A program made the translations under genes and the position numbers. The notes under the pieces were generated by a model. That model was not told the origin of the DNA, searched no databases, and saw only the letters and a list, made by a program, of their open reading frames with translations. This document shows positions 1 to 45,147 of a stretch of DNA of 45,403 nucleotides, one piece after another. Each line of letters opens with the position of its first letter. The stretch's first letter is position 1. Source of the stretch: Saccoglossus kowalevskii (Eukaryota > Hemichordata > Enteropneusta > Harrimaniidae); assembly GCF_000003605.2 (NCBI RefSeq), contig NW_003133884.1, positions 1-45,403 of the forward strand. Direction: 5' to 3'.

Positions 1-300
1 TGGCGTACAGTAACAACGAAGTGCAATAATAATGACGTACAGTAGCTATGAAGGGCAGTAAAATTGGGGTACAGTAACAATGAAGTGCAATAATAATGAC
101 GTACAGTAGCTATGAAGGGCAGTAAAATTGGGGTACAGTAACAATGAAGTGCAATAACAATGACGTACAATAGCTATGAAGGGCAGTAAAATTGGCGTAC
201 AGTCAAAATGAAGTGCAATAATAATGACGTACAATAGCTATGAAGGGCAGTAAAATTGGCGTACAGTAACAATGAAGTGCAATAATAATGACGTACAATA
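1..300 (+). repeat. Island of consecutive 64-bp monomers (left end)
   Basis: At least four successive units carry gaaggg in the fourth subunit, at about 49, 113, 177 and 241, spaced exactly 64 bases. The first ones also share cgtacagtag (instead of cgtacaatag), ggggtacag and, at the very start, taacaacgaag. The same variant combination recurs at about 25,240-25,330 and 43,890-44,010, so the three places are related copies. Since the window starts here, the true left extent is unknown. Confidence 0.85.
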
Positions 301-1081
301 GCTATGGGGGCAGTAAAATTGGCTTACAGTAACAATGAAGTGCAATAACAATGACGTACAATAGCTATGAAGGGCAGTAAATTTGGCGTACAGTAACAAT
401 GAAGTGCAATAATAATGACGTACAATAGCTATGGGACAGTAAAATTGGCTCACAGTAACAATGAAGTGCAATAATAATGACGTACAATAGTTATGGGGGC
501 AGTAAAATTGACGTACAGTAACAATGAAGTGCAATAATAATGACGTACAATAGCTATGGCGGCACTAAAATTGGCGTACAGTAACAATGAAGTGCAATAA
601 TAATGACGTACAATAGCTATGGGGGCAGTAAAATTGGCTTACAGTAACAATGAAGTGCAATAACAATGACGTACAATAGCTATAGGGGCAGTAAAATTGG
701 CGTACAGTATCAATGAAGTGCATTAACAATGATGTACAATAGCTCCGGGGGCAGTAAAAATGGCGTACAGTAACAATGAAGTGCAATAACAATGACGTAC
801 AATAGCTATGGGGGCAGTAAAATTGGCTTACATTAACAATGAAGTGCAATAACAATGGCGTACAATAGCTATGAAGGGCAGTAAAATTGGCGTACAGTGA
901 CAATGAAGTGCAATAACGGTGACGTACAATAGCTATGGAGGCAGTAAAATTGGCGTACAGTAACAATGAAGTGCAATAACAATGACGTACAATAGCTATG
1001 GAGGGAAGTAAAATTGGCTTACAGTAACAATGAAGTGCAATAACAATGACGTACAATAGCTATGGGGGCAGTAAAATTGGC
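287..1081 (+). repeat. 795-bp duplicated block, left copy
   Basis: By line-by-line comparison this segment is identical to 44,047-44,841 (offset 43,760). Rare private variants are shared in the same order: aaatttggcg, atgggacag, ggctcacag, ggcactaaaa, ctataggggc, agctccggg, ggcttacattaac and caataacggtg. The block ends at a mismatch at 1,082 (t against g at 44,842) and begins after a mismatch at 286 (t against c at 44,046). It contains one agctccggg marker monomer (741-746). Confidence 0.93.
741..746 (+). repeat. First of 21 agctccggg marker monomers
   Basis: A distinctive monomer has gtatcaatgaagtgcattaac, gatgtac and agctccggg in place of agctatggg, and is followed by aaaaatggcg. The six-base marker starts at 741, 4,335, 5,409, 6,412, 10,866, 11,181, 11,635 (agctct), 13,906, 17,667 (agatcc), 20,319, 21,013, 22,756, 26,488, 27,308, 30,776 (agctccc), 34,621, 35,632, 40,162, 41,109, 42,372 and 44,501. 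Spacing is irregular (315 bases to about 4.5 kb), so it is spread by block copying rather than as a fixed higher-order unit. Confidence 0.85.
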
Positions 1082-2783
1082 TTACAGTAACAATGAAGTG
1101 CAATAATAATGACGTACAATAGTTATGGGGGCAGTAAAATTGACGTACAGTAACAATGAAGTGCAATAATAGTGACGTACAATAGCTATGGCGGCAGTAA
1201 AATTGGCGTACAGTAACAATGAAGTGCAATAATAATGACGTACAATAGCTATGGGGGCAGTAAAATTGGCGTACAGTAACAATGAAGTGCAATAATAATG
1301 ACGTACAATAGCTATGGGGGCAGTAAAATTGGCGTACAGTATCAATGAAGTGCAATAATAATGACGTACAATAGCTATGGGGGCAGTAAAATTGGCTTAC
1401 AGTAACAATGAAGTGCAATAATAATGACGTACAATAGCTATGGGGGCAGTAAAATTGGCTTACAGTAACAATGAAGTGCAATAATAATGACGTACAATAG
1501 TTATGGGGGCAGTAAAATTGACGTACAGTAACAATGAAGTGCAATAATAATGACGTACAATAGCTATGGCGGCAGTAAAATTGGCGTACAGTAACAATGA
1601 AGTGCAATAATAATGACGTACAATAGCTATGGGGGCAGTAAAATTGGCTTACAGTAACAATGAAGTGCAATAATAATGACGTACAATAGTTATGGGAGCA
1701 GTAAAATTGACGTACAGTAACAATGAAGTGCAATAATAATGACGTACAATAGCTATGGGGGCAGTAAAATTGGCGTACAGTAATAATGAAGTGCAATAAT
1801 AATGACGTACAATAGTTATGGGGGCAGTAAAATTGACGTACAGTAACAATGAAGTGCAATAATAATGACGTACAATAGCTATGGCGGCAGTAAAATTGGC
1901 GTACAGTAACAATGAAGTGCAATAATAATGACGTACAATAGCTATGGGGGCAGTAAAATTGGCTTACAGTAATAATGAAGTACAATAATAATGACGTACA
2001 ATAGCTATGGGGGCAGTACAATTGGCGTACAGTAACAATGAAGTGCAATAATAATGACGTACAATAGCTATGGGGCAGTAAAATTGGCTTACAGTAACAA
2101 TGAATTGCACTAATAATGACGTACAATAGCTATGGGGGCAGTAAAAATGGCGTACAGTAACAATGAAGTGCAATAACAATGACGTACAATAGCTATGGAG
2201 GGCAGTAAAATTGGCTTACAGTAACAATGAAGTGCAATAATAATGACGTACAATAGCTATGGGGGCAGTAAAATTGGCTTACAGTAACAATGAAGTGTAA
2301 TAATAATGACGTACAATAGCTATGGCGGCAGTAAAATTGGCGTACATTAACAATGAAGTGCAATAATAATGACGTACAATAGCTATGGGGGCAGTAAAAT
2401 TGGCTTACAGTAACAATGAAGTGCAATAATAATGACGTACAATAGCTATGGCGGCAGTAAAATTGGCGTACAGTAACAATGAAGTGCAATAACAATGGTG
2501 TACAATAGCTATGAAGGGCAGTAAAATTGGCGTACAGTGACAATGAAGTGCAATAACAATGACGTACAATAGCAATGGGGGCAGTAAAATTGGCTTACAG
2601 TAACAATGAAGTGCAATAATAATGACGTACAATAGTTATGGGGGCAGTAAAATTGACGTACAGTAACAATGAAGTGCAATAATAATGACGTACAATAGCT
2701 ATGGCGGCAGTAAAATTGGCGTACAGTAACAATGAAGTGCAATAATAATGACGTACAATAGCTATGGGGGCAGTAAAATTGGC

Positions 2784-3040
2784 TTACAGTAATAATGAAG
2801 TACAATAATAATGACGTACAATAGCTATGGGGGCAGTACAATTGGCGTACAGTAACAATGAAGTGCAATAATAATGACGTACAATAGCTATGGGGCAGTA
2901 AAATTGGCTTACAGTAACAATGAAGTGCAATAATAATGACGTACAATAGCTATGGGGGCAGTAAAAATGGCGTACAGTAACAATGAAGTGCAATAACAAT
3001 GACGTACAATAGCTATGGAGGGCAGTAAAATTGGCTTACA
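2784..3040 (+). repeat. Variant module with cagtacaattgg, 62-bp unit and aaaaatggcg
   Basis: A characteristic order of variants is seen: taataatgaagtacaat, cagtacaattgg, a 62-bp unit with gggg, aaaaatggcg, then a 64-bp ggaggg unit. The same module occurs near 1,964, 6,805, 8,753, 23,793 and 31,180. Some copies carry gtgcactaat (6.9, 8.9 kb; gttcactaat near 31.3 kb) where this one has gtgcaataat. I list this copy as the representative; the limits are approximate. Confidence 0.7.
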
Positions 3041-4975
3041 GTAACAATGAAGTGCAATAATAATGACGTACAATAGCTATGGGGGCAGTAAAATTGGCTT
3101 ACAGTAACAATGAAGTGTAATAATAATGACGTACAATAGCTATGGCGGCAGTAAAATTGGCGTACATTAACAAGGAAGTGCAATAATAATGACGTACAAT
3201 AGCTATGGGGGCAGTAAAATTGGCTTACAGTAACAATGAAGTGCAATAATAATGACGTACAATAGCTATGTCGGCAGTAAAATTGGCGTACAGTAACAAT
3301 GAAGTGCAATAATAATGACGTACAATAGCTATGGGGGCAGTAAAATTGGCTTACAGTAATAATGAAGTGCAATAATAATGACGTACAATAGTTATGGGGG
3401 CAGTAAAATTGGCGTACAGTAACAATGAAGTGCAATAATAATGACGTACAATAGCTATGGGGGCAGTAAAATTGGCTTACAGTAACAATGAAGTGCAATA
3501 ATAATGACGTACAATAGCTATGGGGGCAGTAAAATTGGCTTACAGTAACAATGAAGTGCAATAATAATGACGTACAATAGTTATGGGGACAGTAAAATTG
3601 GCGTACAGTAACAATGAAGTGCAATAATAATGACGTACAATAGCTATGGGGGCAGTAAAATTGGCTTACAGTAACAATGAAGTGCAATAATAATGACGTA
3701 CAATAGCTATGGGGGCAGTACAATTGGCGTACAGTAACAATGAAGTGCAATAACAATGACGTACAATAGCTATGGGGGCAGTAAAATTGGCGTACAGTAT
3801 CAATGAAGTGCAATAACAATGACGTACAATAGCTATGGGGGCAGTAAAAATGGCGTACAGTAACAATGAAGTGCAAAGACAATGACGTACATTAGCTATG
3901 GGGGCAGTAAAATTGGCTTACAGTAACAATGAAGTGCAATAATAATGACGTACAATAGTTATGGGGGCAGTAAAATTGACGTACAGTAACAATGAAGTGC
4001 AATAATAATGACGTACAATAGCTATGGCGGCAGTAAAATTGGCGTACAGTAACAATGAAGTGCAATAATAATGACGTACAATAGCTATGGGGGCAGTAAA
4101 ATTGGCTTACAGTAACAATGAAGTGCAATAATAATGACGTACAATAGCTATGGGGGCAGTAAAATTGGCTTACAGTAACAATGAAGTGCAATAATAATGA
4201 CGTACAATAGCTATGGGGGCAGTAAAATTGGCGTACAGTAACAATGAAGTGCAATAACAATGACGTACAATAGCTATGGGGGCAGTAAAATTGGCGTACA
4301 GTATCAATGAAGTGCATTAACAATGATGTACAATAGCTCCGGGGGCAGTAAAAATGGCGTACAGTAACAATGAAGTGCAATAACAATGACGTACAATAGC
4401 TATGGGGGCAGTAAAATTGGCTTACAGTAACAATGAAGTGCAATAACAATGGTGTACAATAGCTATGAAGGGCAGTAAAATTGGCGTACAGTGACAATGA
4501 AGTGCAATAACAATGACGTACAATAGCAATGGGGGCAGTAAAATTGGCTTACAGTAACAATGAAGTGCAATAATAATGACGTACAATAGTTATGGGGGCA
4601 GTAAAATTGACGTACAGTAACAATGAAGTGCAATAATAATGACGTACAATAGCTATGGCGGCAGTAAAATTGGCGTACAGTAACAATGAAGTGCAATAAT
4701 AATGACGTACAATAGCTATGGGGGCAGTAAAATTGGCTTACAGTAATAATGAAGTACAATAATAATGACGTACAATAGCTATGGGGGCAGTACAATTGGC
4801 GTACAGTAACAATGAAGTGCAATAATAATGACGTACAATAGCTATGGCGGCAGTAAAATTGGCTTACAGTAACAATGAAGTGCAATAATAATGACGTACA
4901 ATAGCTATGGGGGCAGTAAAAATGGCGTACAGTAACAATGAAGTGCAATAACAATGACGTACAATAGCTATGGAG

Positions 4976-5487
4976 GGCAGTAAAATTGGCTTACAGTAAC
5001 AATGAAGTGCAATAATAATGACGTACAATAGTTATGGGGGCAGTAAAATTGACGTACAGTAACAATGAAGTGCAATAATAATGACGTACAATAGCTATGG
5101 CGGCAGTAAAATTGGCGTACAGTAACAATGAAGTGCAATAATAATGACGTACAATAGCTATGGGGGCAGTAAAATTGGCGTACAGTAATAATGAAGTGCA
5201 ATAATAATGACGTACAATAGCTATGGGGGCAGTAAAATTGGCTTACAGTAACAATGAAGTGCAATAATAATGACGTACAATAGCTATGAAGGGCAGTAAA
5301 ATTGGGGTACAGTAACAATGAAGTGCAATAACAATGACGTACAATAGCTATGGGGGCAGTAAAATTGGCGTACAGTATCAATGAAGTGCATTAACAATGA
5401 TGTACAATAGCTCCGGGGGCAGTAAAAATGGCGTACAGTAACAATGAAGTGCAATAACAATGACGTACAATAGCTATGGGGGCAGTA
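4976..5487 (+). repeat. About 512-bp block matching 20,580-21,091
   Basis: Offset 15,604. The same monomer order is seen, including the taataatgaag unit, the 64-bp gaaggg/ggggtac unit and agctccggg at 5,409. The match ends at cagtacaattgg (5,488; cagtaaaattgg elsewhere). The left limit is set by a ggaggg (64-bp) unit here against a ggggg unit in the other copy. Confidence 0.8.
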
Positions 5488-5918
5488 CAATTGGCTTACA
5501 GTAACAATGAAGTGCAATAACAATGGCGTACAATAGCTATGAAGGGCAGTAAAATTGGCGTACAGTGACAATGAAGTGCAATAACAATGACGTACAACAG
5601 CTATGGAAGCAGTAAAATTGGCGTACAGTAACAATGAAGTGCAATAACAATGACGTACAATAGCTATGGGGGCAGTAAAATTGGCTTACAGTAACAATGA
5701 AGTGCAATAATAATGACGTACAATAGTTATGGGGGCAGTAAAATTGACGTACAGTAACAATGAAGTGCAATAATAGTGACGTACAATAGCTATGGCGGCA
5801 GTAAAATTGGCGTACAGTAACAATGAAGTGCAATAATAATGACGTACAATAGCTATGGGGGCAGTAAAATTGGCGTACAGTATCAATGAAGTGCAATAAT
5901 AATGACGTACAATAGCTA

Positions 5919-5965
5919 TGGGGGCAGTAACAATGAAGTGCAATAATAATGACGTACAATAGCTA
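5919..5965 (+). repeat. 47-bp monomer lacking subunit A
   Basis: Here the short D subunit caatagctatggggg is followed directly by B (cagtaacaatgaagtg, 5,935-5,950); the 16-base A subunit is absent. The loss is exactly one subunit, which supports the 16-base modular view. It shifts the minus-strand frame. The same deletion with the same neighbours occurs at about 42,683. Confidence 0.88.
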
Positions 5966-7554
5966 TGGGGGCAGTAAAATTGGCTTACAGTAACAATGAA
6001 GTGCAATAATAATGACGTACAATAGTTATGGGGGCAGTAAAATTGACGTACAGTAACAATGAAGTGCAATAATAATGACGTACAATAGCTATGGGGGCAG
6101 TACAATTGGCGTACAGTAACAATGAAGTGCAATAACAATGACGTACAATAGCTATGGGGGCAGTAAAATTGGCTTACAGTAACAATGAAGTGCAATAATA
6201 ATGACGTACAATAGCTATGGGGGCAGTAAAATTGGCTTACAGTAACAATGAAGTGCAATAATAATGACGTACAATAGCTATGGGGGCAGTAAAATTGGCG
6301 TACAGTAACAATGAAGTGCAATAACAATGACGTACAATAGCTATGGGGGCAGTAAAATTGGCGTACAGTATCAATGAAGTGCATTAACAATGATGTACAA
6401 TAGCTCCGGGGGCAGTAAAAATGGCGTACAGTAACAATGAAGTGCAATAACAATGACGTACAATAGCTATGGGGGCAGTAAAATTGGCTTACAGTAACAA
6501 TGAAGTGCAATAACAATGGTGTACAATAGCTATGAAGGGCAGTAAAATTGGCGTACAGTGACAATGAAGTGCAATAACAATGACGTACAATAGCTATGGG
6601 GACAGTAAAATTGGCTTACAGTAACAATGAAGTGCAATAATAATGACGTACAATAGTTATGGGGGCAGTAAAATTGACGTACAGTAACAATGAAGTGCAA
6701 TAATAATGACGTACAATAGCTATGGCGGCAGTAAAATTGGCGTACAGTAACAATGAAGTGCAATAATAATGACGTACAATAGCTATGGGGGCAGTAAAAT
6801 TGGCTTACAGTAATAATGAAGTACAAAAATAATGACGTACAATAGCTATGGGGGCAGTACAATTGGCGTACAGTAACAATGAAGTGCAATAATAATGACG
6901 TACAATAGCTATGGGGCAGTAAAATTGGCTTACAGTAACAATGAAGTGCACTAATAATGACGTACAATAGCTATGGGGGCAGTAAAAATGGCGTACAGTA
7001 ACAATAAAGTGCAATAACAATGACGTACAATAGCTATGGAGGGCAGTAAAATTGGCTTACAGTAACAATGAAGTGCAATAATAATGACGTACAATAGCTA
7101 TGGGGGCAGTAAAATTGGCTTACAGTAACAATGAAGTGTAATAATAATGACGTACAATAGCTATGGCGGCAGTAAAATTGGCGTACTGTTAACAATGAAG
7201 TGCAATAATAATGACGTACAATAGCTATGGGGGCAGTAAAATTGGCTTACAGTAACAATGAAGTGCAATAATAATGACGTACAATAGCTATGGCGGCAGT
7301 AAAATTGGCGTACAGTAACAATGAAGTGCAATAATAATGATGTACAATAGCTATGGGGGCAGTAAAATTGGCTTACAGTAACAATGAAGTACAATAACAA
7401 TGACGTACAATAGCTATGGGGGCAGTAAAATTGGCGTACAGTATCAATGAAGTGCAATAACAATGACGTACAATAGCTATGGGGGCAGTAAAAATGGCGT
7501 ACAGTAACAATGAAGTGCAAAAACAATGACGTACATTAGCTATGGGGGCAGTAA

Positions 7555-7770
7555 AATTGGGCTTACAGTACAATGAAGTGCAATAATAATGACGTACAAT
7601 AGTTATGGGGGCAGTAAAATTGACGTACAGTAACAATGAAGTGCAATAATAATGACGTACATAGCTATGGCGGCAGTAAAATGGCGTACAGTACCATGAA
7701 GTGCATATAATGACGTACAATAGCTATGGGGGCAGTAAAATGGCTTACAGTAACATGAAGTGCACTAATA
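7555..7770. other. Cluster of single-base indels in the array
   Basis: Within about 215 bases there are many one-base losses or gains in short runs: gggcttac, gtacaatgaag, cgtacatagc, aaaatggcg, gtaccatgaag, gtgcatataatg, aaaatggcttac, gtaacatgaag. Single-base losses of this kind are rare in most of the array. The pattern fits low-quality consensus or a contig join better than biological divergence. Confidence 0.65.
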
Positions 7771-8311
7771 ATGACGTACAATAGCTATGGGGGCAGTAAA
7801 AATGGCGTACAGTAACAATGAAGTGCAATAACAATGACGTACAATAGCTATGGAGGGCAGTAAAATTGGCTTACAGTAACAATGAAGTGCAATAATAATG
7901 ACGTACAATAGCTATGGGGGCAGTAAAATTGGCTTACAGTAACAATGAAGTGTAATAATAATGACGTACAATAGCTATGGCGGCAGTAAAATTGGCGTAC
8001 ATTAACAATGAAGTGCAATAATAATGACGTACAATAGCTATGGGGGCAGTAAAATTGGCTTACAGTAACAATGAAGTGCAATAATAATGACGTACAATAG
8101 CTATGGCGGCAGTAAAATTGGCGTACAGTAACAATGAAGTGCAATAATAATGACGTACAATAGCTATGGGGGCAGTAAAATTGGCTTACAGTAATAATGA
8201 AGTGCAATAATAATGACGTACAATAGTTATGGGGGCAGTAAAATTGGCGTACAGTAACAATGAAGTGCAATAATAATGACGTACAATAGCTATGGGGGCA
8301 GTAAAATTGGC

Positions 8312-8541
8312 TTACAGTAACAATGAAGTGCAATAATAATGACGTACAATAGCTATGGGGGCAGTACAATTGGCGTACAGTAACAATGAAGTGCAATAAC
8401 AATGACGTACAATAGCTATGGGGGCAGTAAAATTGGCGTACAGTATCAATGAAGTGCAATAACAATGACGTACAATAGCTATGGGGGCAGTAAAAATGGC
8501 GTACAGTAACAATGAAGTGCAAAAACAATGACGTACATTAG
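8312..8541 (+). repeat. Variant module ending in cgtacattagc
   Basis: The order here is cagtacaattgg, caataacaatg, gtatcaatgaag, aaaaatggcg, gtgcaaaaacaatgacgtacattagc. The terminal marker gtacattagc is at 3,887, 7,531, 8,532, 9,351, 10,168, 15,647, 24,770 and 31,652. The 3.9-kb copy has caaagacaatg instead of caaaaacaatg. In this marker unit subunit D reads cattagctatggggg. This is the representative copy. Confidence 0.7.
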
Positions 8542-11500
8542 CTATGGGGGCAGTAAAATTGGCTTACAGTAACAATGAAGTGCAATAATAATGACGTACA
8601 ATAGTTATGGGGGCAGTAAAATTGACGTACAGTAACAATGAAGTGCAATAATAATGACGTACAATAGCTATGGCGGCAGTAAAATTGGCGTACAGTAACA
8701 ATGAAGTGCAATAATAATGACGTACAATAGCTATGGGGGCAGTAAAATTGGCTTACAGTAATAATGAAGTACAATAATAATGACGTACAAGAGCTATGGG
8801 GGCAGTACAATTGGCGTACAGTAACAATGAAGTGCAATAATAATGACGTACAATAGCTATGGGGCAGTAAAATTGGCTTACAGTAACAATGAAGTGCACT
8901 AATAATGACGTACAATAGCTATGGGGGCAGTAAAAATGGCGTACAGTAACAATGAAGTGCAATAACAATGACGTACAATAGCTATGGAGGGCAGTAAAAT
9001 TGGCTTACAGTGACAATGAAGTGCAATAATAATGACGTACAATAGCTATGGGGGCAGTAAAATTGGCTTACAGTAACAATGAAGTGTAATAATAATGACG
9101 TACAATAGCTATGGGGGCAGTAAAATTGGCTTACAGTAACAATGAAGTGCAATAATAATGACGTACAATAGCTATGGGGGCAGTAAAATTGGCTTACAGT
9201 AACAATGAAGTGCAATAATAATGACGTACAATAGCTATGGCGGCAGTAAAATTGGCGTACAGTAACAATGAAGTGCAATAATAATGACGTACAATAGCTA
9301 TGGGGGCAGTAAATTGGCGTACAGTAACAATGAAGTGCAAAAACAATGACGTACATTAGCTATGGGGGCAGTAAAATTGGCTTACAGTAACAATGAAGTG
9401 CAATAATAATGACGTACAATAGTTATGGGGGCAGTAAAATTGACGTACAGTAACAATGAAGTGCAATAATAATGACGTACAATAGCTATGGCGGCAGTAA
9501 AATTGGCGTACAGTAACAATGAAGTGCAATAATAATGACGTACAATAGCTATGGGGGCAGTAAAATTGGCTTACAGTAACAATGAAGTGCAATAATAATG
9601 ACGTACAATAGCTATGGGGGCAGTAAAATTGGCGCACAGTAACAATGAAGTGCAATAATAATGACGTATAATAGCTATGGGGGCAGTAAATTGGCTTACA
9701 GTAACAATGAAGTGCAATAATAATGACGTACAATAGCTATGGCGGCAGTAAAATTGGCGTACAGTAACAATGAAGTGCAATAATAATGACGTACAATAGC
9801 TATGGTGGCAGTAAAATTGGCTTACAGTAATAATGAAGTGCAATAATAATGACGTACAATAGCTATGGGGGCAGTAAAATTGGCTTACAGTAACAATGAA
9901 GTGCAATAATAATGACGTACAATAGCTATGGGGGCAGTAAAATTGGCTTATAGTAACAATGAAGTGCAATAATAATGACGTACAATAGCTATGGGGGCAG
10001 TAAAATTGGCTTACAGTAACAATGAAGTACAATAACAATGACGTACAATAGCTATGGGGGCAGTAAAATTGGCGTACAGTATCAATGAAGTGCAATAACA
10101 ATGACGTACAATAGCTATGGGGGCAGTAAAAATGGCGTACAGTAACAATGAAGTGCAAAAACAATGACGTACATTAGCTATGGGGGCAGTAAAATTGGCT
10201 TACAGTAACAATGAAGTGCAATAATAATGACGTACAATAGTTATGGGGGCAGTAAAATTGACGTACAGTAACAATGAAGTGCAATAATAATGACGTACAA
10301 TAGCTATGGCGGCAGTAAAATTGGCGTACAGTAACAATGAAGTGCAATAATAATGACGTACAATAGCTATGGGGGCAGTAAAATTGGCTTACAGTAACAA
10401 TGAAGTGCAATAATAATGACGTACAATAGCTATGGGGGCAGTAAAATTGGCGCACAGTAACAATGAAGTGCAATAATAATGACGTATAATAGCTATGGGG
10501 GCAGTAATTGGCTTACAGTAACATGAAGTGCAATAATAATGACGTACAATAGCTATGGCGGCAGTAAAATTGGCGTACAGTAACAATGAAGTGCAATAAT
10601 AATGACGTACAATAGCTATGGTGGCAGTAAAATTGGCTTACAGTAATAATGAAGTGCAATAATAATGACGTACAATAGCTATGGGGGCAGTAAAATTGGC
10701 TTACAGTAACAATGAAGTGCAATAATAATGACGTACAATAGCTATGGGGGCAGTAAAATTGGCGTACAGTAACAATGAAGTGCAATAACAATGACGTACA
10801 ATAGCTATGGGGGTAGTAAAATTGGCGTACAGTATCAATGAAGTGCATTAACAATGATGTACAATAGCTCCGGGGGCAGTAAAAATGGCGTACAGTAACA
10901 ATGAAGTGCAATAACAATGACGTACAATAGCTATGGGGGCAGTAAAATTGGCGTACAGTAACAATGAAGTGCAATAATAATGACGTACAATAGCTATGGG
11001 GGCAGTAAAATTGGCTTACAGTAACAATGAAGTGCAATAATAATGACGTACAATAGCTATGGGGGCAGTAAAATTGGCGTACAGTAACAATGAAGTGCAA
11101 TAACAATGACGTACAATAGCTATGGGGGCAGTAAAATTGGCGTACAGTATCAATGAAGTGCATTAACAATGATGTACAATAGCTCCGGGGGCAGTAAAAA
11201 TGGCGTACAGTAACAATGAAGTGCAATAACAATGACGTACAATAGCTATGGGGGCAGTAAAATTGGCTTACAGTAACAATGAAGTGCAATAATAATGACG
11301 TACAATAGCTATGGGGGCAGTAAAATTGGCTTACAGTAACAATGAAGTGCAATAATAATGACGTACAATAGCTATGGGGGCAGTAAAATTGGCTTACAGT
11401 AACAATTGAAGTGCAATAATAATGACGTACAATAGCTATGGGGGCAGTAAAAATTGGCGTACATTAACAATGAAGTGCAATAATAATGACGTACAATAGC

Positions 11501-21463: not shown

Positions 21464-22699
21464 CGGCAGTAAAATTGGCGTACAGTAACAATGAAGTGCA
21501 ATAATAATGACGTACAATAGCTATGGGGGCAGTAAAATTGGCGTACAGTATCAATGAAGTGCAATAATAATGACGTACAATAGCTATGGGGGCAGTAAAA
21601 TTGGCTTACAGTAACAATGAAGTGCAATAATAATGACGTACAATAGCTATGGGGGCAGTAAAATTGGCTTACAGCAACAATGAAGTGCAATAATAATGAC
21701 GTACAATAGCTATGGGGGCAGTAAAATTGGCTTACAGTAACAATGAAGTGCAATAATAATGACGTACAATAGCTATGGCGGCAGTAAAATTGGCGTACAG
21801 TAACAATGAAGTGCAATAATAATGACGTACAATAGCTATGGCGGCATTAAAATTGGCGTACATTAACAATGAAGTGCAATAATAATGACGTACAATAGCT
21901 ATGGCGGCAGTAAAATTGGCGTACAGTAACAATGAAGTGCAATAATAATGACGTACAATAGCTATGGGGGCAGTAAAATTGGCTTACAGTAACAATGAAG
22001 TGCAATAATAATGACGTACAATAGCTATGGGGGCAGTAAAATTGGCGCACAGTAACAATGAAGTGCAATAATAATGACGTATAATAGCTATGGGGGCAGT
22101 AAATTGGCTTACAGTAACAATGAAGTGCAATAATAATGACGTACAATAGCTATGGCGGCAGTAAAATTGGCGTACAGTAACAATGAAGTGCAATAATAAT
22201 GACGTACAATAGCTATGGTGGCAGTAAAATTGGCTTACAGTAATAATGAAGTGCAATAATAATGACGTACAATAGCTATGGGGGCAGTAAAATTGGCTTA
22301 CAGTAACAATGAAGTGCAATAATAATGACGTACAATAGCTATGGGGGCAGTAAAATTGGCTTATAGTAACAATGAAGTGCAATAACAATGACGTACAATA
22401 GCTATGGGGGCAGTAAAATTGGCTTACAGTAACAATGAAGTGCAATAATAATGACGTACAATAGCTATGGCGGCAGTAAAATTGGCGTACAGTAACAATG
22501 AAGTGCAATAATAATGACGTACAATAGCTATGGGGGCAGTAAAATTGGCGTACAGTAACAATGAAGTGCAATAATAATGACGTACAATAGCTATGGGGGC
22601 AGTAAAATTGGCTTACAGTAACAATGAAGTGCAATAATAATGACGTACAATAGTTATGGGGGCAGTAAAATTTGACGTACAGTACATGAAGTGTAATAA

Positions 22700-22749
22700 N
22701 NNNNNNNNNNNNNNNNNNNNNNNNNNNNNNNNNNNNNNNNNNNNNNNNN
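22700..22749. other. 50-base assembly gap (N)
   Basis: Fifty Ns. Flanking bases show extra or missing run bases (aaaatttgacg, gtacatgaag on the left; caattaagctcc, aaaaaatggcg on the right), typical of read ends. The gap size is a placeholder. The left flank resembles 19,980-20,050, and the right flank begins inside an agctccggg marker monomer. In the 20-kb relative these points are about 270 bases apart, so several monomers may be missing. Confidence 0.95.
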
Positions 22750-23364
22750 CAATTAAGCTCCGGGGGCAGTAAAAAATGGCGTACAGTAACAATGAAGTGC
22801 AATAACAATGACGTACAATAGCTATGGGGGCAGTAAAATTGGCTTACAGTAACAATGAAGTGCAATAACAATGGCGTACAATAGCTATGAAGGGCAGTAA
22901 AATTGGCGTACAGTGACAATGAAGTGCAATAACAATGACGTACAACAGCTATGGAAGCAGTAAAATTGGCGTACAGTAACAATGAAGTGCAATAACAATG
23001 ACGTACAATAGCTATGGAGGGAAGTAAAATTGGCTTACAGTAACAATGAAGTGCAATAACAATGACGTACAATAGCTATGGGGGCAGTAAAATTGGCTTA
23101 CAGTAACAATGAAGTGCAATAATAATGACGTACAATAGCTATGGGGGCAGTAAAATTGGCTTACAGTAACAATGAAGTGCAATAATAATGACGTACAATA
23201 GCTATGGCGGCAGTAAAATTGGCGTACATTAACAATGAAGTGCAATAATAATGACGTACAATAGCTATGGCGGCAGTAAAATTGGCGTACAGTAACAATG
23301 AAGTGCAATAATAATGACGTACAATAGCTATGGGGGCAGTAAAATTGGCTTACAGTAATAATGA

Positions 23365-33030: not shown

Positions 33031-33039
33031 ATAATGACG

Positions 33040-33960: not shown

Positions 33961-36330
33961 CAATGAAGTGCAATAATAATGACGTATAATAGCTATGGGG
34001 GCAGTAAAATTGGCTTACAGTAACAATGAAGTGCAATAATAATGACGTACAATAGCTATGGCGGCAGTAAAATTGGCGTACAGTAACAATGAAGTGCAAT
34101 AATAATGACGTACAATAGCTATGGGGGCAGTAAAATTGGCGTACAGTAACAATGAAGTGCAATAATAATGACGTACAATAGCTATGGGGGCAGTAAAATT
34201 GGCTTACAGTAACAATGAAGTGCAATAATAATGACGTACAATAGCTATGGGGGCAGTAAAATTGGCTTACAGTAACAATGAAGTGCAATAATAATGACGT
34301 ACAATAGTTATGGGGGCAGTAAAATTGACGTACAGTAACAATGAAGTGTAATAATAATGACGTACAATAGCTATGGCGGCAGTAAAATTGGCGTACAGTA
34401 ACAATGAAGTGCAATAATAATGACGTACAATAGCTATGGGGGCAGTAAAATTGGCTTACAGTAACAATGAAGTGCAATAATAATGACGTACAATAGCTAT
34501 GGGGGCAGTAAAATTGGCGTACCGTAACAATGAAGTGCAATAACAATGACGTACAATAGCTATGGGGGCAGTAAAATTGGCGTACAATATCAATGAAGTG
34601 CATTAACAATGATGTACAATAGCTCCGGGGACAGTAAAAATGGCGTACAGTAACAATGAAGTGCAATAACAATGACGTACAATAGCTATGGGGGCAGTAA
34701 AATTGGCTTACAGTAACAATGAAGTGCAATAATAATAATGACGTACAATAGCTATGGGGGCATTAAAATTGGCTTACAGTAACAATGAAGTGCAATAATA
34801 ATGAAGTACAATAGCTATGGGGGCAGTAAAATTGGCTTACAGTAACAATGAAGTGCAATAACAATGACGTACAATAGCTATGGCGGCAGTAAAATTGGCG
34901 TACATTAACAATGAAGTGCAATAATAATGACGTACAATAGCTATGGCGGCAGTAAAATTGGCGTACAGTAACAATGAAGTGCAATAATAATGACGTACAA
35001 TAGCTATGGGGGCAGTAAAATTGGCTTACAGTAATAATGAAGTGCAATAATAATGACGTACAATAGCTATGGGGGCAGTAAAATTGGCGTACAGTAACAA
35101 TGAAGTGCAATAATAATGACGTACAATAGCTATGGGGGCAGTAAAATTGGCTTACAGTAACAATGAAGTGCAATAATAATGACGTACAATAGCTATGGAG
35201 GCAGTAAAATTGGCTTACAGTAACAATGAAGTGCAATAATAATGACGTACAATAGTTATGGGGGCAGTAAAATTGACGTACAGTACCAATGAAGTGCATT
35301 AATAATGACGTACAATAGCTATGACGGCAGTAAAATTGGCGTACAGTAACAATGAAGTGCAATAATAATGACGTACAATAGCTATGGGGGCAGTAAAATT
35401 GGCTTACAGTAACAATGAAGTGCACTAATAATGACGTACAATAGCTATGGGGGCAGTAAAATTGGCTTACAGTAACAATGAAGTGCAATAATAATGACGT
35501 ACAATAGCTATGGGGGCAGTAAAATTGGCGTACAGTAACAATGAAGTGCAATAACAATGACGTACAATAGCTATGGGGGCAGTAAAATTGGCGTACAGTA
35601 TCAATGAAGTGCATTAACAATGATGTACAATAGCTCCGGGGGCAGTAAAAATGGCGTACAGTAACAATGAAGTGCAATAACAATGACGTACAATAGCTAT
35701 GGGGGCAGTAAAATTGGCTTACAGTAACAATGAAGTGCAATAACAATGGCGTACAATAGCTATGAAGGGCAGTAAAATTGGCGTACAATGACAATGAAGT
35801 GCAATAACAATGACGTACAATAGCTATGGGGGCAGTAAAATTGGCTTACAGTAACAATGAAGTGCAATAATAATGACGTACAATAGTTATGGGGGCAGTA
35901 ATATTGACGTACAGTAACAATGAAGTGCAATAATAATGACGTACAATAGCTATGGCGGCAGTAAAATTGGCGTACAGTAACAATGAAGTGCAATAATAAT
36001 GACGTACAATAGCTATGGGGGCAGTAAAATTGGCTTACAGTAACAATGAAGTGCAATAATAATGACGTACAATAGCTATGGGGGCAGTAAAATTGGCTTA
36101 CAGTAACAATGAAGTGCAATAATAATGACGTACAATAGGTATGGGGCAGTAAAATTGGCTTACAGTAACAATGAAGTGCAATAATAATGACGTACAATAG
36201 CTATGGGGGCAGTAAAATTGGCTTACAGTAACAATGAAGTGCAATAATAATGACGTACAATAGCTATGGCGGCAGTAAAATTGGCGTACATTAACAATGA
36301 AGTGCAATAATAATGACGTACAATAGCTAA

Positions 36331-37277
36331 GGCGGCAGTAAAATTGGCGTACAGTAACAATGAAGTGCAATAATAATGACGTACAATAGCTATGGTGGCA
36401 GTAAAATTGGCTTACAGTAATAATGAAGTGCAATAATAATGACGTACAATAGCTATGGGGGCAGTAAAATTGGCTTACAGTAACAATGAAGTGCAATAAT
36501 AATGACGTACAATAGCTATAGGGGCAGTAAAATTGGCTTATAGTAACAATGAAGTGCAATAACAATGACGTACAATAGCTATGGGGGCAGTAAAATTGGC
36601 TTACAGTAACAATGAAGTGCAATAATAATGACGTACAATAGCTATGGCGGCAGTAAAATTGGCGCACAGTAACAATGAAGTGCAATAATAATGACGTATA
36701 ATAGCTATGGGGGCAGTAAAATTGGCTTACAGTAACAATGAAGTGCAATAATAATGACGTACAATAGCTATGGCGGCAGTAAAATTGGCGTACAGTAACA
36801 ATGAAGTGCAATAATAATGACGTACAATAGCTATGGTGGCAGTAAAATTGGCTTACAGTAATAATGAAGTGCAATAATAATGACGTACAATAGCTATGGG
36901 GGCAGTAAAATTGGCTTACAGTAACAATGAAGTGCAATAATAATGACGTACAATAGCTATGGGGGCAGTAAAATTGGCTTATAGTAACAATGAAGTGCAA
37001 TAACAATGACGTACAATAGCTATGGGGGCAGTAAAATTGGCTTACAGTAACAATGAAGTGCAATAATAATGACGTACAATAGCTATGGCGGCAGTAAAAT
37101 TGGCGCACAGTAACAATGAAGTGCAATAATAATGACGTATAATAGCTATGGGGGCAGTAAAATTGGCTTACAGTAACAATGAAGTGCAATAATAATGACG
37201 TACAATAGCTATGGCGGCAGTAAAATTGGCGTACAGTAACAATGAAGTGCAATAATAATGACGTACAATAGCTATGG
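36331..37277 (+). repeat. 441-bp higher-order repeat (7 monomers), about 2.1 tandem copies
   Basis: Variant monomers recur at exactly 441 bases: ggcttatag at 36,537 and 36,978, and ggcgcacag at 36,661 and 37,102, each with the same neighbours (ggtggcag with taataatgaag before, cgtataatag after). One mismatch is visible at 36,520 (ctatagggg against ctatggggg at 36,961). The repeat ends where ggtgg gives way to ggggg near 37,278. 441 is 7 x 63, so this is a true higher-order unit. Confidence 0.85.
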
Positions 37278-37344
37278 GGGCAGTAAAATTGGCGTACAGT
37301 AACAATGAAGTGCAATAATAATGACGTACAATAGCTATGGGGGC

Positions 37345-37610
37345 AGTAAATTGGCTTACAGTACAATGAAGTGCAATATAATGACGTACATAGTTATGGG
37401 GGCCGTAAAATTGACGTACAGTATCAATGGAGGGCCTTAACAATGAAGTTAAATATGTAGGGGGGCAGTAAAAATTGGGTCCCGTTACCAATGAAGTGAA
37501 ATAAAAAGGAGTTACAATAGTTAGGGGGCCATTAAAATTGGTTTCCATTACCAATGAAGTCCATTAATAAGGAGGTCCAATAGTTAGGGGGGCAGTAAAA
37601 TTGGCGTACA
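37345..37610. other. Degraded patch of about four monomers
   Basis: The patch begins with single-base losses (gtaaattgg, gtacaatgaag, gcaatataatg, gtacatagtt) and worsens to heavily altered units (ggagggccttaac, gaagttaaatatgtag, gggtcccgttacc, aaataaaaaggag, gtttccattacc, aaggaggtccaatag). Normal monomers resume near 37,600. The gradual left-to-right decay, followed by abrupt recovery, fits a read running into poor quality. Confidence 0.6.
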
Positions 37611-38450
37611 GTAACAATGAAGTGCAATAACAATGACGTACAATAGTTATGGGGGCAGTAAAATTGGCTTACAGTAACAATGAAGTGCAATAATAATGAC
37701 GTACAATAGTTATGGGGGCAGTAAAATTGGCTTACAGTAACAATGAAGTGCAATAATAATGACGTACAATAGCTATGGCGGCAGTAAAATTGGCGTACAT
37801 TAACAATGAAGTGCAATAATAATGACGTACAATAGCTAAGGCGGCAGTAAAATTGGCGTACAGTAACAATGAAGTGCAATAATAATGAGGTACAATAGCT
37901 ATGGTGGCAGTAAAATTGGCTTACAGTAATAATGAAGTGCAATAATAATGACGTACAATAGCTATGGGGGCAGTAAAATTGGCTTACAGTAACAATGAAG
38001 TGCAATAATAATGACGTACAATAGCTATGGCGGCAGTAAAATTGGCGTACATTAACAATGAAGTGCAATAATAATGACGTACAATAGCTAAGGCGGCAGT
38101 AAAATTGGCGTACAGTAACAATGAAGTGCAATAATAATGACGTACAATAGCTATGGTGGCAGTAAAATTGGCTTACAGTAACAATGAAGTGCAATAATAA
38201 TGACGTACAATAGCTATGGGGGCAGTAAAATTGGCTTATAGTAACAATGAAGTGCAATAACAATGACGTACAATAGCTATGGGGGCAGTAAAATTGGCTT
38301 ACAGTAACAATGAAGTGCAATAATAATGACGTACAATAGCTATGGCGGCAGTAAAATTGGCGTACATTAACAATGAAGTGCAATAATAATGACGTACAAT
38401 AGCTATGGCGGCAGTAAAATTGGCGCACAGTAACAATGAAGTGCAATAAT
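37610..38450 (+). repeat. Block with paired agctaaggcgg variants, copy 3
   Basis: Markers are at 37,834 and 38,086 (252 apart), with aatgaggtac at about 37,888. Offset to copy 2 is 4,536 (72 x 63). The downstream order ggtgg, ggcttatag, caataacaatg, ggcgg with cgtacattaac, ggcgg with gcgcacag agrees with copy 1, but without copy 1's small deletions. Like copy 2, it starts right after a degraded patch. Confidence 0.75.
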
Positions 38451-38894
38451 AATGACGTACAATAGCTATGGCGGCAGTAAAATTGGCGTACAGTAACAAT
38501 GAAGTGCAATAATAATGACGTACAATAGCTATGGGGGCAGTAAAATTGGCGTACAGTAACAATGAAGTGCAATAATAATGACGTACAATAGCTATGGGGG
38601 CAGTAAAATTGGCTTACAGTAACAATGAAGTGCAATAATAATGACGTACAATAGCTATGGGGGCAGTAAAATTGGCTTACAGTAACAATGAAGTGCAATA
38701 ATAATGACGTACAATAGTTATGGGGGCAGTAAAATTGACGTACAGTAACAATGAAGTGTAATAATAATGACGTACAATAGCTATGGCGGCAGTAAAATTG
38801 GCGTACAGTAACAATGAAGTGCAATAATAATGACGTACAATAGCTATGGGGGCAGTAAAATTGGCTTACAGTAACAATGAAGTGCAATAATAAT

Positions 38895-39015
38895 GACGTA
38901 CATAGCTATGGGGGCAGTAAAATTGGCGTACCGTAACAATGAAGTGCAATACAATGACGTACATAGCTATGGGGGCAGTAAAATGGCGTACAGTAACATG
39001 AAGTGCATAACAATG
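38895..39015. other. Indel-rich stretch
   Basis: Losses: gtacatagc (twice), gtaccgtaac, gcaatacaatg, aaaatggcg, gtaacatgaag, gtgcataac. The related segments near 20,940-21,060 and 41,030-41,160 contain an additional agctccggg monomer at this place, so the stretch may also hide a collapsed unit. Confidence 0.6.
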
Positions 39016-39868
39016 ACGTACAATAGCTATGGGGGCAGTAAAATTGGCTTACAGTAACAATGAAGTGCAATAACAATGGCGTACAATAGCTATGAAGGGC
39101 AGTAAAATTGGCGTACAGTGACAATGAAGTGCAATAACAATGACGTACAACAGCTATGGAAGCAGTAAAATTGGCGTACAGTAACAATGAAGTGCAATAA
39201 CAATGACGTACAATAGCTATGGAGGGAAGTAAAATTGGCTTACAGTAACAATGAAGTGCAATAACAATGACGTACAATAGCTATGGGGGCAGTAAAATTG
39301 GCTTACAGTAACAATGAAGTGCAATAATAATGACGTACAATAGTTATGGGGGCAGTAAAATTGACGTACAGTAACAATGAAGTGCAATAATAGTGACGTA
39401 CAATAGCTATGGCGGCAGTAAAATTGGCGTACAGTAACAATGAAGTGCAATAATAATGACGTACAATAGCTATGGGGGCAGTAAAATTGGCGTACAGTAT
39501 CAATGAAGTGCAATAATAATGACGTACAATAGCTATGGGGGCAGTAAAATTGGCTTACAGTAACAATGAAGTGCAATAATAATGACGTACAATAGCTATG
39601 GGGGCAGTAAAATTGGCTTACAGTAACAATGAAGTGCAATAATAATGACGTACAATAGTTATGGGGGCAGTAAAATTGACGTACAGTAACAATGAAGTGC
39701 AATAATAATGACGTACAATAGCTATGGCGGCAGTAAAATTGGCGTACAGTAACAATGAAGTGCAATAATAATGACGTACAATAGCTATGGGGGCAGTAAA
39801 ATTGGCTTACAGTAACAATGAAGTGCAATAATAATGACGTACAATAGTTATGGGAGCAGTAAAATTGA

Positions 39869-40612
39869 CGTACAGTAACAATGAAGTGCAATAATAATGA
39901 CGTACAATAGCTATGGGGGCAGTAAAATTGGCGTACAGTAATAATGAAGTGCAATAATAATGACGTACAATAGCTATGGGGGCAGTAAAATTGGCTTACA
40001 GTAACAATGAAGTGCAATAATAATGACGTACAATAGCTATGAAGGGCAGTAAAATTGGGGTACAGTAACAATGAAGTGCAATAACAATGACGTACAATAG
40101 CTATGGGGGCAGTAAAATTGGCGTACAGTATCAATGAAGTGCATTAACAATGATGTACAATAGCTCCGGGGGCAGTAAAAATGGCGTACAGTAACAATGA
40201 AGTGCAATAACAATGACGTACAATAGCTATGGGGGCAGTAAAATTGGCTTACAGTAACAATGAAGTGCAATAACAATGGCGTACAATAGCTATGAAGGGC
40301 AGTAAAATTGGCGTACAGTGACAATGAAGTGCAATAACAATGACGTACAACAGCTATGGAAGCAGTAAAATTGGCGTACAGTAACAATGAAGTGCAATAA
40401 CAATGACGTACAATAGCTATGGAGGGAAGTAAAATTGGCTTACAGTAACAATGAAGTGCAATAACAATGACGTACAATAGCTATGGGGGCAGTAAAATTG
40501 GCTTACAGTAACAATGAAGTGCAATAATAATGACGTACAATAGTTATGGGGGCAGTAAAATTGACGTACAGTAACAATGAAGTGCAATAATAGTGACGTA
40601 CAATAGCTATGG
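39869..40612 (+). repeat. 744-bp duplicated block, right copy
   Basis: Identical to 20,720-21,463. It differs at 40,613, where ggggg replaces ggcgg. A shorter relative starts at 42,079 and stays identical for 379 bases until 42,458 (gggttac against ggcttac). The neighbouring segments near 39,050-39,840 and 41,200-41,985 also match each other at offset 2,147, so this part of the array has been locally duplicated more than once. Confidence 0.9.
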
Positions 40613-41844
40613 GGGCAGTAAAATTGGCTTACAGTAACAATGAAGTGCAATAATAATGACGTACAATAGCTATGGGGGCAGTAAAATTGGCTTACAGTAA
40701 CAATGAAGTGCAATAATAATGACGTACAATAGTTATGGGGGCAGTAAAATTGACGTACAGTAACAATGAAGTGCAATAATAATGACGTACAATAGCTATG
40801 GCGGCAGTAAAATTGGCGTACAGTAACAATGAAGTGCAATAATAATGACGTACAATAGCTATGGGGGCAGTAAAATTGGCTTACAGTAACAATGAAGTGC
40901 AATAATAATGACGTACAATAGCTATGGGGGCAGTAAAATTGGCTTACAGTAACAATGAAGTGCAATAATAATGACGTACAATAGCTATGGGGGCAGTAAA
41001 ATTGGCGTACAGTAACAATGAAGTGCAATAACAATGACGTACAATAGCTATGGGGGCAGTAAAATTGGCGTACAGTATCAATGAAGTGCATTAACAATGA
41101 TGTACAATAGCTCCGGGGGCAGTAAAAATGGCGTACAGTAACAATGAAGTGCAATAACAATGACGTACAATAGCTATGGGGGCAGTAAAATTGGCTTACA
41201 GTAACAATGAAGTGCAATAACAATGGCGTACAATAGCTATGAAGGGCAGTAAAATTGGCGTACAGTGACAATGAAGTGCAATAACAATGACGTACAACAG
41301 CTATGGAAGCAGTAAAATTGGCGTACAGTAACAATGAAGTGCAATAACAATGACGTACAATAGCTATGGAGGGAAGTAAAATTGGCTTACAGTAACAATG
41401 AAGTGCAATAACAATGACGTACAATAGCTATGGGGGCAGTAAAATTGGCTTACAGTAACAATGAAGTGCAATAATAATGACGTACAATAGTTATGGGGGC
41501 AGTAAAATTGACGTACAGTAACAATGAAGTGCAATAATAGTGACGTACAATAGCTATGGCGGCAGTAAAATTGGCGTACAGTAACAATGAAGTGCAATAA
41601 TAATGACGTACAATAGCTATGGGGGCAGTAAAATTGGCGTACAGTATCAATGAAGTGCAATAATAATGACGTACAATAGCTATGGGGGCAGTAAAATTGG
41701 CTTACAGTAACAATGAAGTGCAATAATAATGACGTACAATAGCTATGGGGGCAGTAAAATTGGCTTACAGTAACAATGAAGTGCAATAATAATGACGTAC
41801 AATAGTTATGGGGGCAGTAAAATTGACGTACAGTAACAATGAAG

Positions 41845-42457
41845 TGCAATAATAATGACGTACAATAGCTATGGCGGCAGTAAAATTGGCGTACAGTAAC
41901 AATGAAGTGCAATAATAATGACGTACAATAGCTATGGGGGCAGTAAAATTGGCTTACAGTAACAATGAAGTGCAATAATAATGACGTACAATAGTTATGG
42001 GGGCAGTAAAATTGACGTACAGTAACAATGAAGTGCAATAATAATGACGTACAATAGCTATGGCGGCAGTAAAATTGGCGTACAGTAACAATGAAGTGCA
42101 ATAATAATGACGTACAATAGCTATGGGGGCAGTAAAATTGGCGTACAGTAATAATGAAGTGCAATAATAATGACGTACAATAGCTATGGGGGCAGTAAAA
42201 TTGGCTTACAGTAACAATGAAGTGCAATAATAATGACGTACAATAGCTATGAAGGGCAGTAAAATTGGGGTACAGTAACAATGAAGTGCAATAACAATGA
42301 CGTACAATAGCTATGGGGGCAGTAAAATTGGCGTACAGTATCAATGAAGTGCATTAACAATGATGTACAATAGCTCCGGGGGCAGTAAAAATGGCGTACA
42401 GTAACAATGAAGTGCAATAACAATGACGTACAATAGCTATGGGGGCAGTAAAATTGG
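41845..42457 (+). repeat. 613-bp block identical to 20,486-21,098
   Basis: Offset 21,359. The left limit is a private gaattgc in the middle copy (20,485), and the right limit is gggttac here (42,458). It carries the agctccggg marker at 42,372. After the block, this copy diverges into the 47-bp-monomer neighbourhood at 42.5-42.7 kb. Confidence 0.85.
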
Positions 42458-42682
42458 GTTACAGTAACAATGAAGTGCAATAACAATGGCGTACAATAGA
42501 TATGAAGGGCAGTAAAATTGGCGTACAGTATCAATGAAGTGCAATAATAGTGACGTACAATAGCTATGGCGGCAGTAAAATTGGCGTACAGTAACAATGA
42601 AGTGCAATAATAATGACGTACAATAGCTATGGGGGCAGTAAAATTGGCGTACAGTATCAATGAAGTGCAATAATAATGACGT

Positions 42683-42729
42683 ACAATAGCTATGGGGGCA
42701 GTAACAATGAAGTGCAATAATAATGACGT
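42683..42729 (+). repeat. 47-bp monomer lacking subunit A, second copy
   Basis: The B subunit begins at 42,699 directly after a short D subunit. The preceding monomers (caataatagtgacg, ggcgg, ggcgtac, gtatcaatgaagtgcaataat) match those before the 5.9-kb copy in order, so this is one deletion spread by later block copying over about 36.8 kb. The match ends downstream at gttatggg (gctatggg at 5.9 kb). Confidence 0.88.
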
Positions 42730-43889
42730 ACAATAGTTATGGGGGCAGTAAAATTGACGTACAGTAACAATGAAGTGTAATAATAATGACGTACAATAGC
42801 TATGGCGGCAGTAAAATTGGCTTACAGTAATAATGAAGTGCAATAATAATGACGTACAATAGCTATGGGGGCAGTAAAATTGGCTTACAGTAACAATGAA
42901 GTGCAATAATAATGACGTACAATAGCTATGGGGGCAGTAAAATTGGCTTATAGTAACAATGAAGTGCAATAACAATGACGTACAATAGCTATGGGGGCAG
43001 TAAAATTGGCTTACAGTAACAATGAAGTGCAATAATAATGACGTACAATAGCTATGGCGGCAGTAAAATTGGCGCACAGTAACAATGAAGTGCAATAATA
43101 ATGACGTATAATAGCTATGGGGGCAGTAAAATTGGCTTACAGTAACAATGAAGTGCAATAATAATGACGTACAATAGCTATGGCGGCAGTAAAATTGGCG
43201 TACAGTAACAATGAAGTGCAATAATAATGACGTACAATAGCTATGGGGGCAGTAAAATTGGCGTACAGTAACAATGAAGTGCAATAATAATGACGTACAA
43301 TAGCTATGGGGGCAGTAAAATTGGCTTACAGTAACAATGAAGTGCAATAATAATGACGTACAATAGTTATGGGGGCAGTAAAATTGACGTACAGTAACAA
43401 TGAAGTGTAATAATAATGACGTACAATAGCTATGGCGGCAGTAAAATTGGCGTACAGTAACAATGAAGTGCAATAATAATGACGTACAATAGCTATGGGG
43501 GCAGTAAAATTGGCTTACAGTAACAATGAAGTGCAATAATAATGACGTACAATAGCTATGGGGGCAGTAAAATTGGCGCACAGTAACAATGAAGTGCAAT
43601 AATAATGACGTATAATAGCTATGGGGGCAGTAAAATTGGCTTACAGTAACAATGAAGTGCAATAATAATGACGTACAATAGCTATGGCGGCAGTAAAATT
43701 GGCGTACAGTAACAATGAAGTGCAATAATAATGACGTACAATAGCTATGGGGGCAGTAAAATTGGCGTACAGTAACAATGAAGTGCAATAATAATGACGT
43801 ACAATAGCTATGGGGGCAGTAAAATTGGCTTACAGTAACAATGAAGTGCAATAATAATGACGTACAATAGTTATGGGGGCAGTAAAATT

Positions 43890-44135
43890 GACGTACAGTA
43901 ACAACGAAGTGCAATAATAATGACGTACAGTAGCTATGAAGGGCAGTAAAATTGGGGTACAGTAACAATGAAGTGCAATAATAATGACGTACAGTAGTTA
44001 TGAAGGGCAGTAAAATTGGGGTACAGTAACAATGAAGTGCAATAACAATGACGTACAATAGCTATGGGGGCAGTAAAATTGGCTTACAGTAACAATGAAG
44101 TGCAATAACAATGACGTACAATAGCTATGAAGGGC
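43890..44135 (+). repeat. Short 64-bp island near the right end
   Basis: Two or three gaaggg-type units (about 43,938, 44,002 and 44,128), preceded by taacaacgaag and cgtacagtagc, resemble the left end of the window and 25,240-25,330. Relative to the left end, two 64-bp units are missing: the alignment offset is 43,888 at the left marker but 43,760 from base 287 on. Confidence 0.75.
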
Positions 44136-44841
44136 AGTAAATTTGGCGTACAGTAACAATGAAGTGCAATAATAATGACGTACAATAGCTATGGGACAGT
44201 AAAATTGGCTCACAGTAACAATGAAGTGCAATAATAATGACGTACAATAGTTATGGGGGCAGTAAAATTGACGTACAGTAACAATGAAGTGCAATAATAA
44301 TGACGTACAATAGCTATGGCGGCACTAAAATTGGCGTACAGTAACAATGAAGTGCAATAATAATGACGTACAATAGCTATGGGGGCAGTAAAATTGGCTT
44401 ACAGTAACAATGAAGTGCAATAACAATGACGTACAATAGCTATAGGGGCAGTAAAATTGGCGTACAGTATCAATGAAGTGCATTAACAATGATGTACAAT
44501 AGCTCCGGGGGCAGTAAAAATGGCGTACAGTAACAATGAAGTGCAATAACAATGACGTACAATAGCTATGGGGGCAGTAAAATTGGCTTACATTAACAAT
44601 GAAGTGCAATAACAATGGCGTACAATAGCTATGAAGGGCAGTAAAATTGGCGTACAGTGACAATGAAGTGCAATAACGGTGACGTACAATAGCTATGGAG
44701 GCAGTAAAATTGGCGTACAGTAACAATGAAGTGCAATAACAATGACGTACAATAGCTATGGAGGGAAGTAAAATTGGCTTACAGTAACAATGAAGTGCAA
44801 TAACAATGACGTACAATAGCTATGGGGGCAGTAAAATTGGC
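44047..44841 (+). repeat. 795-bp duplicated block, right copy
   Basis: Identical to 287-1,081. After 44,841 this copy runs into diverged edge monomers (cgtacattaac, caataactatgacgtataat), whereas the left copy continues into typical array. The block therefore sits about 300 bases inside the right array boundary. It contains the agctccggg marker at 44,501. Confidence 0.93.
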
Positions 44842-45147
44842 GTACATTAACAATGAAGTGCAATAACTATGACGTATAATAGCTATGGAGGGCAGTAAAA
44901 TTGGCTTACAGTAACAATGAAGTGCAATAATAATGACGTACAATAGCTATGGGGGGCAGTAAAATTGGCTTACAGTAACAATGAAGTGCAATAATAATGA
45001 CGTACAATAGCTATGGAGGCAGTAAAATTGGCTTACAGTAACAATGAAGTGCAATAATAATGACGTACAATAGATATGGAGGGCAGTGAAATTGGCGTTC
45101 AGTAACAATGAAGTGAATTGACAATGACGTAAAATACCGATGGAGTA
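44842..45147 (+). repeat. Diverged edge of the array
   Basis: The last five or so monomers have increasing private changes: cgtacattaac, caataactatgacgtataat, gggggg, gatatggag, cagtgaaattgg, cgttcag, aagtgaattgac, cgtaaaatacc. The final recognisable subunits are C-like aattgacaatgacgta and D-like aaataccgatggagta, ending near 45,147. Four of the last five units have a 64-bp-type D (ggaggg or gggggg). Decay toward the edge is normal where unequal exchange homogenises an array interior. Confidence 0.85.

Follow-up and report, generated by a model that had tools for sequence, protein, structure and literature searches.

The window analysed here is the whole of a Saccoglossus kowalevskii contig of 45,403 bp. 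Except for the last 256 bases, it consists of one tandem array of 63- and 64-bp units, which begins at contig base 1 and whose final recognisable unit stops at 45147, the end point given in the original prediction. The units are short and lie head to tail in a single orientation, as expected of a satellite or a minisatellite, and the extent of tens of kilobases (45.1 kb in the contig, with one gap and the left end outside) is that of a satellite rather than a minisatellite.

Table 1. Positions of the array, its edge units and its flank in the window
Feature	Position	Strand	Basis or remark
Tandem array of 63/64-bp units	1..45147	+	716 units by cyclic alignment; left end outside contig
Block repeated near the other end	117..1128	+	98.2% to 43877-44888, 1012 bp ungapped
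50-N gap within array	22700..22749		Hides the true array length
Overlap with same-genome contig C721	44653..45403	+	Array part identical; six single-base deletions, 45269-45388
64-bp unit near right edge, S3 tail GGGGG after ATG	44909..44972	+	Unit table
63-bp unit near right edge, intermediate tail GAGG	44973..45035	+	Unit table
Last full unit, 64 bp, tail GAGGG	45036..45099	+	Unit table
Degenerate edge unit, 48 bases	45100..45147	+	S1, then two diverged 16-base subunits
Right flank	45148..45403		Found only in this contig and C721 in the one search made

Units were defined by cyclic alignment to a 64-column unit. Most of them (590) have 63 bp; 84 units have 64 bp, 28 have 62 bp, and the remaining 14 have other lengths. 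Each can be divided into four subunits: S1, CAGTAACAATGAAGTG; S2, CAATAA[T,C]AATGACGTA; S3, CAATAGCTATG followed by a variable tail; and S4, CAGTAAAATTGGCGTA. S3 has 15 bases in 612 of the 716 units, 16 in 79, 14 in 21 and another length in 4. Most 16-base copies of S3 end in AAGGG or GAGGG, and most 15-base copies in GGGG or GCGG. This agrees with the earlier description of a 64-bp unit made of four 16-base subunits, one of which has 15 bases in the 63-bp form. The short subunit is the third as the unit is cut here, and it becomes the fourth, as originally described, only when CAGTAAAATTGG is taken as the start of the unit.

The subunits of the degenerate unit at the right edge were delimited by hand; the length of 51 bp that this unit has in the cyclic alignment is an effect of the alignment cut. 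Its S1 matches the consensus at 16/16 bases, its second subunit matches S2 at 13/16, and its third subunit, AAATACCGATGGAGTA, has 16 bases and matches S3 and S2 alike at 11/16. At this end, the contig of the window and C721 overlap yet stay separate in the assembly. The six single bases that the window lacks relative to C721 are all in runs of two to four equal bases, and they fall within 135 bases of the window end, in unique flank; to judge from this alignment, the window end looks poorly polished. Odd indels are also seen beside the N gap (22650-22800), for example AAAATTTGACG and GTACATGAAG, and suggest raw-read errors.

A spindle-E-like ORF (C721:258029-258400; L009:1030-1401) lies on the + strand and is directed towards the array, whose edge is about 3.5 kb away. 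The best PDB sequence match of this ORF was the helicase Spindle-E (E = 5.7e-7, residues 21-111). No Pfam family scored above the cut-off for five flank ORFs, the spindle-E-like ORF included. The flank ORF at L009:2357-3013 had no PDB match, either whole or with its first 104 aa, and the one at L009:4254-4670 had PDB matches only at E >= 1.1.

The consensus of the array has two open frames on the minus strand, and mechanical ORFs reach up to 633 aa. A coding repeat (63 = 3 x 21) was rejected: excess synonymous change was found in none of the six frames, and the frame is broken in 122 of the 716 units. The array is non-coding, as satellites and minisatellites are.

Sixteen-base ancestry of the repeat unit

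The original prediction held that the monomer is a tetramer of a 16-base ancestor and proposed that its self-similarity at lag 16 be compared with that of shuffled monomers. The excess proved to be clear. The 64-bp consensus is identical with itself at 42/64 positions at lag 16 and at 48/64 at lag 32, where about 18 are expected from shuffles, and none of the 20,000 shuffles of each kind, mononucleotide and dinucleotide, came to 42 at any of the lags 4-32. The 63-bp consensus has a lag-16 identity of 36/63, which none of 20,000 mononucleotide shuffles attained, also when the maximum over lags 4-31 was taken. Furthermore, TRF reported, unprompted, a period of 16 over 8-45127 with 60% matches. 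Internal sub-repeats above chance are the mark of a satellite grown from a shorter repeat, and the sequence comparison strongly supports a 16-base ancestry of the unit, as had been predicted.

Positions 1, 2, 4, 5, 10, 11 and 14 are invariant across the four subunits of the 64-bp consensus, compared with at most four invariant columns in the shuffles (20,000 trials of each of the two kinds). The seven invariant positions claimed earlier are therefore present in the consensus, but the claim does not extend to single units: all seven are kept in only 202 of 714 units and six in 385, and at position 14 of S4 the 716 units are split mainly between G (382 units) and T (329). In the same set of 714, the number of units with a subunit nearer to the consensus of another position was 0, 21, 0 and 1 for the four positions in order. 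Because the subunits hold to their own positions in this way, the divergence of the four would have come before their joint amplification as a long unit.

A weak point for four-fold homology is that S3 and S4 agree at just 7/16 bases; the identities of the other pairs are 13 (S1-S2), 12 (S1-S3 and S2-S4) and 11 (S1-S4 and S2-S3). Among the three possible splits, the one that separates S1 and S3 from S2 and S4 was the best, with a bootstrap value that changed with the variant taken (0.71, 0.80 or 0.58). Such a split is the trace expected of doubling from 16 to 32 to 64 bases, and we take it as a hint only. The higher identity at lag 32 than at lag 16 weakly suggests, in the same sense, that the unit grew from 16 through 32 to 64 bases and not in one step.

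Order of the 64-bp and 63-bp forms

The original prediction gave the change of length a direction, from 64 to 63 bp, and several observations favour it. S1, S2 and S4, the siblings of S3, each have 16 bases. The S3 tail AAGGG is equal to S1 at 4/5 bases, whereas GAGGG, GCGG and GAGG share at most three bases, and GGGG at most two, with their best sibling. Near the right edge, where the degenerate unit, as delimited by hand, has a 16-base third subunit, four of the final six full units contain a 16-base S3, as do 75 of the remaining 709 (p = 0.0018, uncorrected); with the last 10 and 15 units, the enrichment has p = 0.0024 and 0.018, again uncorrected. The within-class difference outside the tail was 3.17 positions among units with 16-base S3 versus 2.87. 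The former comprise 41 distinct forms in 79 units as against 142 in 612, a ratio that is sensitive to sample size.

Trees rooted at the edge were built from 705 of the 716 units (those with no N, no insertion and a position before 45100) and then from the 684 that are ungapped outside S3, with one filter applied to both lengths. The root state was 64 in three of the four settings and 63 in the other. These trees took the place of a first monomer tree, which was set aside for a lopsided filter (single-copy 64-bp rows were in and single-copy 63-bp rows out) and a misaligned edge unit, and which carried no support values. In that first tree, about 15 of 41 64-bp rows sit inside a large, mostly 63-bp clade. 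Nesting of 64-bp units within 63-bp clades had been named in advance as the finding that would speak against the 64-to-63 order; it was thus seen for a part of the rows in the lopsided tree, but three of the four edge-rooted trees place 64 at the root. Taken together, the siblings, the tail, the edge unit, the edge enrichment and these three trees indicate that the 64-bp form is probably older than the 63-bp form. The predicted polarity is in our view favoured, not proven, given that one tree roots at 63 and that many 64-bp types nest among 63-bp types.

A C at column 23, the base that S1 and S3 also have, is a marker 20 bases away. It was present in 50 of 79 64-bp units versus 144 of 611 when counted by unit, but the units are copies of one another. 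By tail, the marker was found in 22/32 units with GGAGGG, 26/43 with GAAGGG, 121/427 with GGGGG, 3/116 with GGCGG and 0/12 of the 62-bp units with GGGG. Counted by distinct haplotype, the figures were 21/41 versus 40/121 (p = 0.042), and without the column-28 G lineage, which is one 64-bp lineage, they were 12/32 versus 39/120; the association was gone. The tail, body and haplotype counts were made on the same 684 units as the ungapped tree set. Of 132 unit bodies, nine are shared by the two lengths; among these are the bodies that single-copy 64-bp units with the tails CGGGGG (after CC) and GGCGGG have in common with 63-bp units. A single deletion followed by a takeover would be too clean an account of these sequences; a fair statement is that a base was probably lost, with some regain or exchange. 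Of the proposal that a one-base-deleted version took over most of the array, the outcome stands, in that 63-bp units now make up the majority, but not the clean single event.

One could envision the opposite order, in which 63 bp was the original unit of the array, the base having been lost before the spread, and 64-bp units arose by later insertions or exchanges. Such an order would agree with the predominance of 63-bp units (590/716), with the one edge-rooted tree that has 63 at its root, with the nested 64-bp rows of the first tree and with the two single-copy 64-bp types on 63-bp bodies. If this were true, however, an insertion would have to recreate the S1-like bases of the common 64-bp tails AAGGG and GAGGG, and both the 16-base third subunit in the edge unit and the enrichment of 16-base S3 near the edge argue against it. 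We regard this order of events as possible but unlikely. Alternatively, the length difference might be largely an assembly artefact, caused by single-base deletions in homopolymer runs of unpolished long reads. The bases missing near the end of the window, all in short runs, and the odd indels on both sides of the N gap are what such an artefact would leave, but the window and C721 show no disagreement in either length over their common 495 bp of array, although the same reads may underlie the two contigs. In addition, the GGCGG tails of 116 of the 684 gap-free units represent a 15-base S3 without a long G run, and blocks that lie far apart repeat the length variants in an unchanged order of units. 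An artefact of this extent is very improbable. The identical overlap with C721, in which both lengths occur, and the GGCGG tails make it very likely that the 63-bp form is real; rare length variants may be errors.

A different kind of explanation is that selection maintains the seven shared positions because they form a repeated protein-binding site; the 16-base period would then be functional and not historical. The median number of units with a minor allele is indeed 3 at these positions as compared with 11.5 elsewhere (59 of the 64 columns, five being left out), but this difference has p = 0.055 and the number of alternative alleles p = 0.70, neither of which amounts to significantly lower variability; the frequent T at position 14 of S4 also runs counter to a conserved site. 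We consider selection for such a site extremely improbable, and we give scarcely any credence to the further proposal that CA.TA....TG..G is a selected binding site through which the array acts on the spindle-E-like gene, for instance as a multi-site regulatory or chromatin element. The array itself is most likely without a selected function.

Spread, proposed history and known systems

Units differ from their neighbours at 3.77 positions on average, from those 21-400 units away at 4.03-4.06 and from those beyond at 4.53. There are 135 exact repeat pairs of at least 300 bp; the longest is 848 bp, and in several of the longest the two copies are separated by 18-24 kb. The block at 117-1128 and its counterpart at 43877-44888, 43.76 kb apart, either reflect the duplication of a block over a long distance or were produced by a join in the assembly; their exact core is 795 bp, from 287 and from 44047. 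No dominant higher-order period was found at lags below 200 units, where the best exact identity of lags 1-200 was 0.074 versus 0.045 expected, and the high value at lag 694 (0.5 of 22 pairs) reflects the duplication between the two ends of the array. An alpha-like satellite with higher-order repeats was rejected, there being no regular multi-unit period. The possibility that the two halves of the scaffold are two haplotypes was also rejected: exact pairs of at least 500 bp number 14 between the halves versus 4 and 5 within them, and the 300-bp offsets are not collinear. Growth and mixing through unequal exchange and block duplication would fit the shared exact blocks and the slight decay of similarity with distance.

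A search of the animal's own genome (572 Mb, 4,830 contigs) with one 100-base query found the array only in this contig and the overlapping C721 among the two of three candidates that were scored, the counts being lower bounds; a chromosome-wide or centromeric satellite family would have many arrays in the genome. A 28-base pattern of the array had 0 exact matches in the viral and in the prokaryote collections.

We propose, with a probability of about 0.7, that the array, which was seen at a single locus, is a satellite, or else a large minisatellite, that does not code for protein and in which a unit of 16-base origin reached 64 bp and then lost a base to give the 63-bp majority. The copies of a 16-base tandem repeat would have drifted apart, a 32-base dimer perhaps being an intermediate, and four adjacent copies would have become a new 64-base unit of amplification; the four-fold homology is observed, and the steps are reconstructed from it. 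The 63-base units, today the majority in the array, would have followed when the G-rich tail of one subunit became a base shorter. Loss and gain in the tail, or exchange of a short tail segment between units, would have taken place more than once, and growth and mixing would continue through unequal exchange and long-distance block duplication.

The process is textbook knowledge from other satellites, of which the array is a tidy, ordinary example, and it leaves the current understanding of satellite evolution unchanged. Satellite units often arise from shorter repeats by cycles of duplication and divergence, according to the portion of PMC5615363 drawn on here, which traces the centromeric satellites of mouse, tilapia and sparids to a nine-nucleotide monomer. 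Those satellites form a centromeric family (PMC5615363, same portion), whereas the present array has a 16-base ancestor and a 63/64-bp unit and was seen at one locus near a likely gene. A plant satellite is FabTR-53 of Lathyrus, whose monomers are interpreted, in an excerpt of PMC7004042, as former higher-order repeats of shorter units on the basis of extra periodicity peaks. It resembles the present array in having a monomer built from shorter units, but its monomers are 368-660 bp long and it occurs in a plant, in many arrays (PMC7004042, same excerpt). TCsat18 of Tribolium is described in part of PMC10218199 as a low-copy satellite with a 73-bp monomer and variants of 63 and 82 bp. It is similar in the length variants of one short monomer and, to judge from the one genome search, in its low copy number; unlike the forms described here, its variants are about 10 bp apart and make up dimeric higher-order repeats, and that part of the account does not mention a 16-base ancestry (PMC10218199).

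Hypervariable minisatellites, or VNTRs, have units of 10-100 bp, as stated in the same portion of PMC5615363. The array is like them in the size of its unit and in being a mosaic of unit variants. Its length of 45 kb or more exceeds the usual length of hypervariable minisatellites and VNTRs. Set beside these systems, the array is a clear example of a short repeat turning into a longer satellite unit, in which the change between 63 and 64 bp helps to order the events inside one array.
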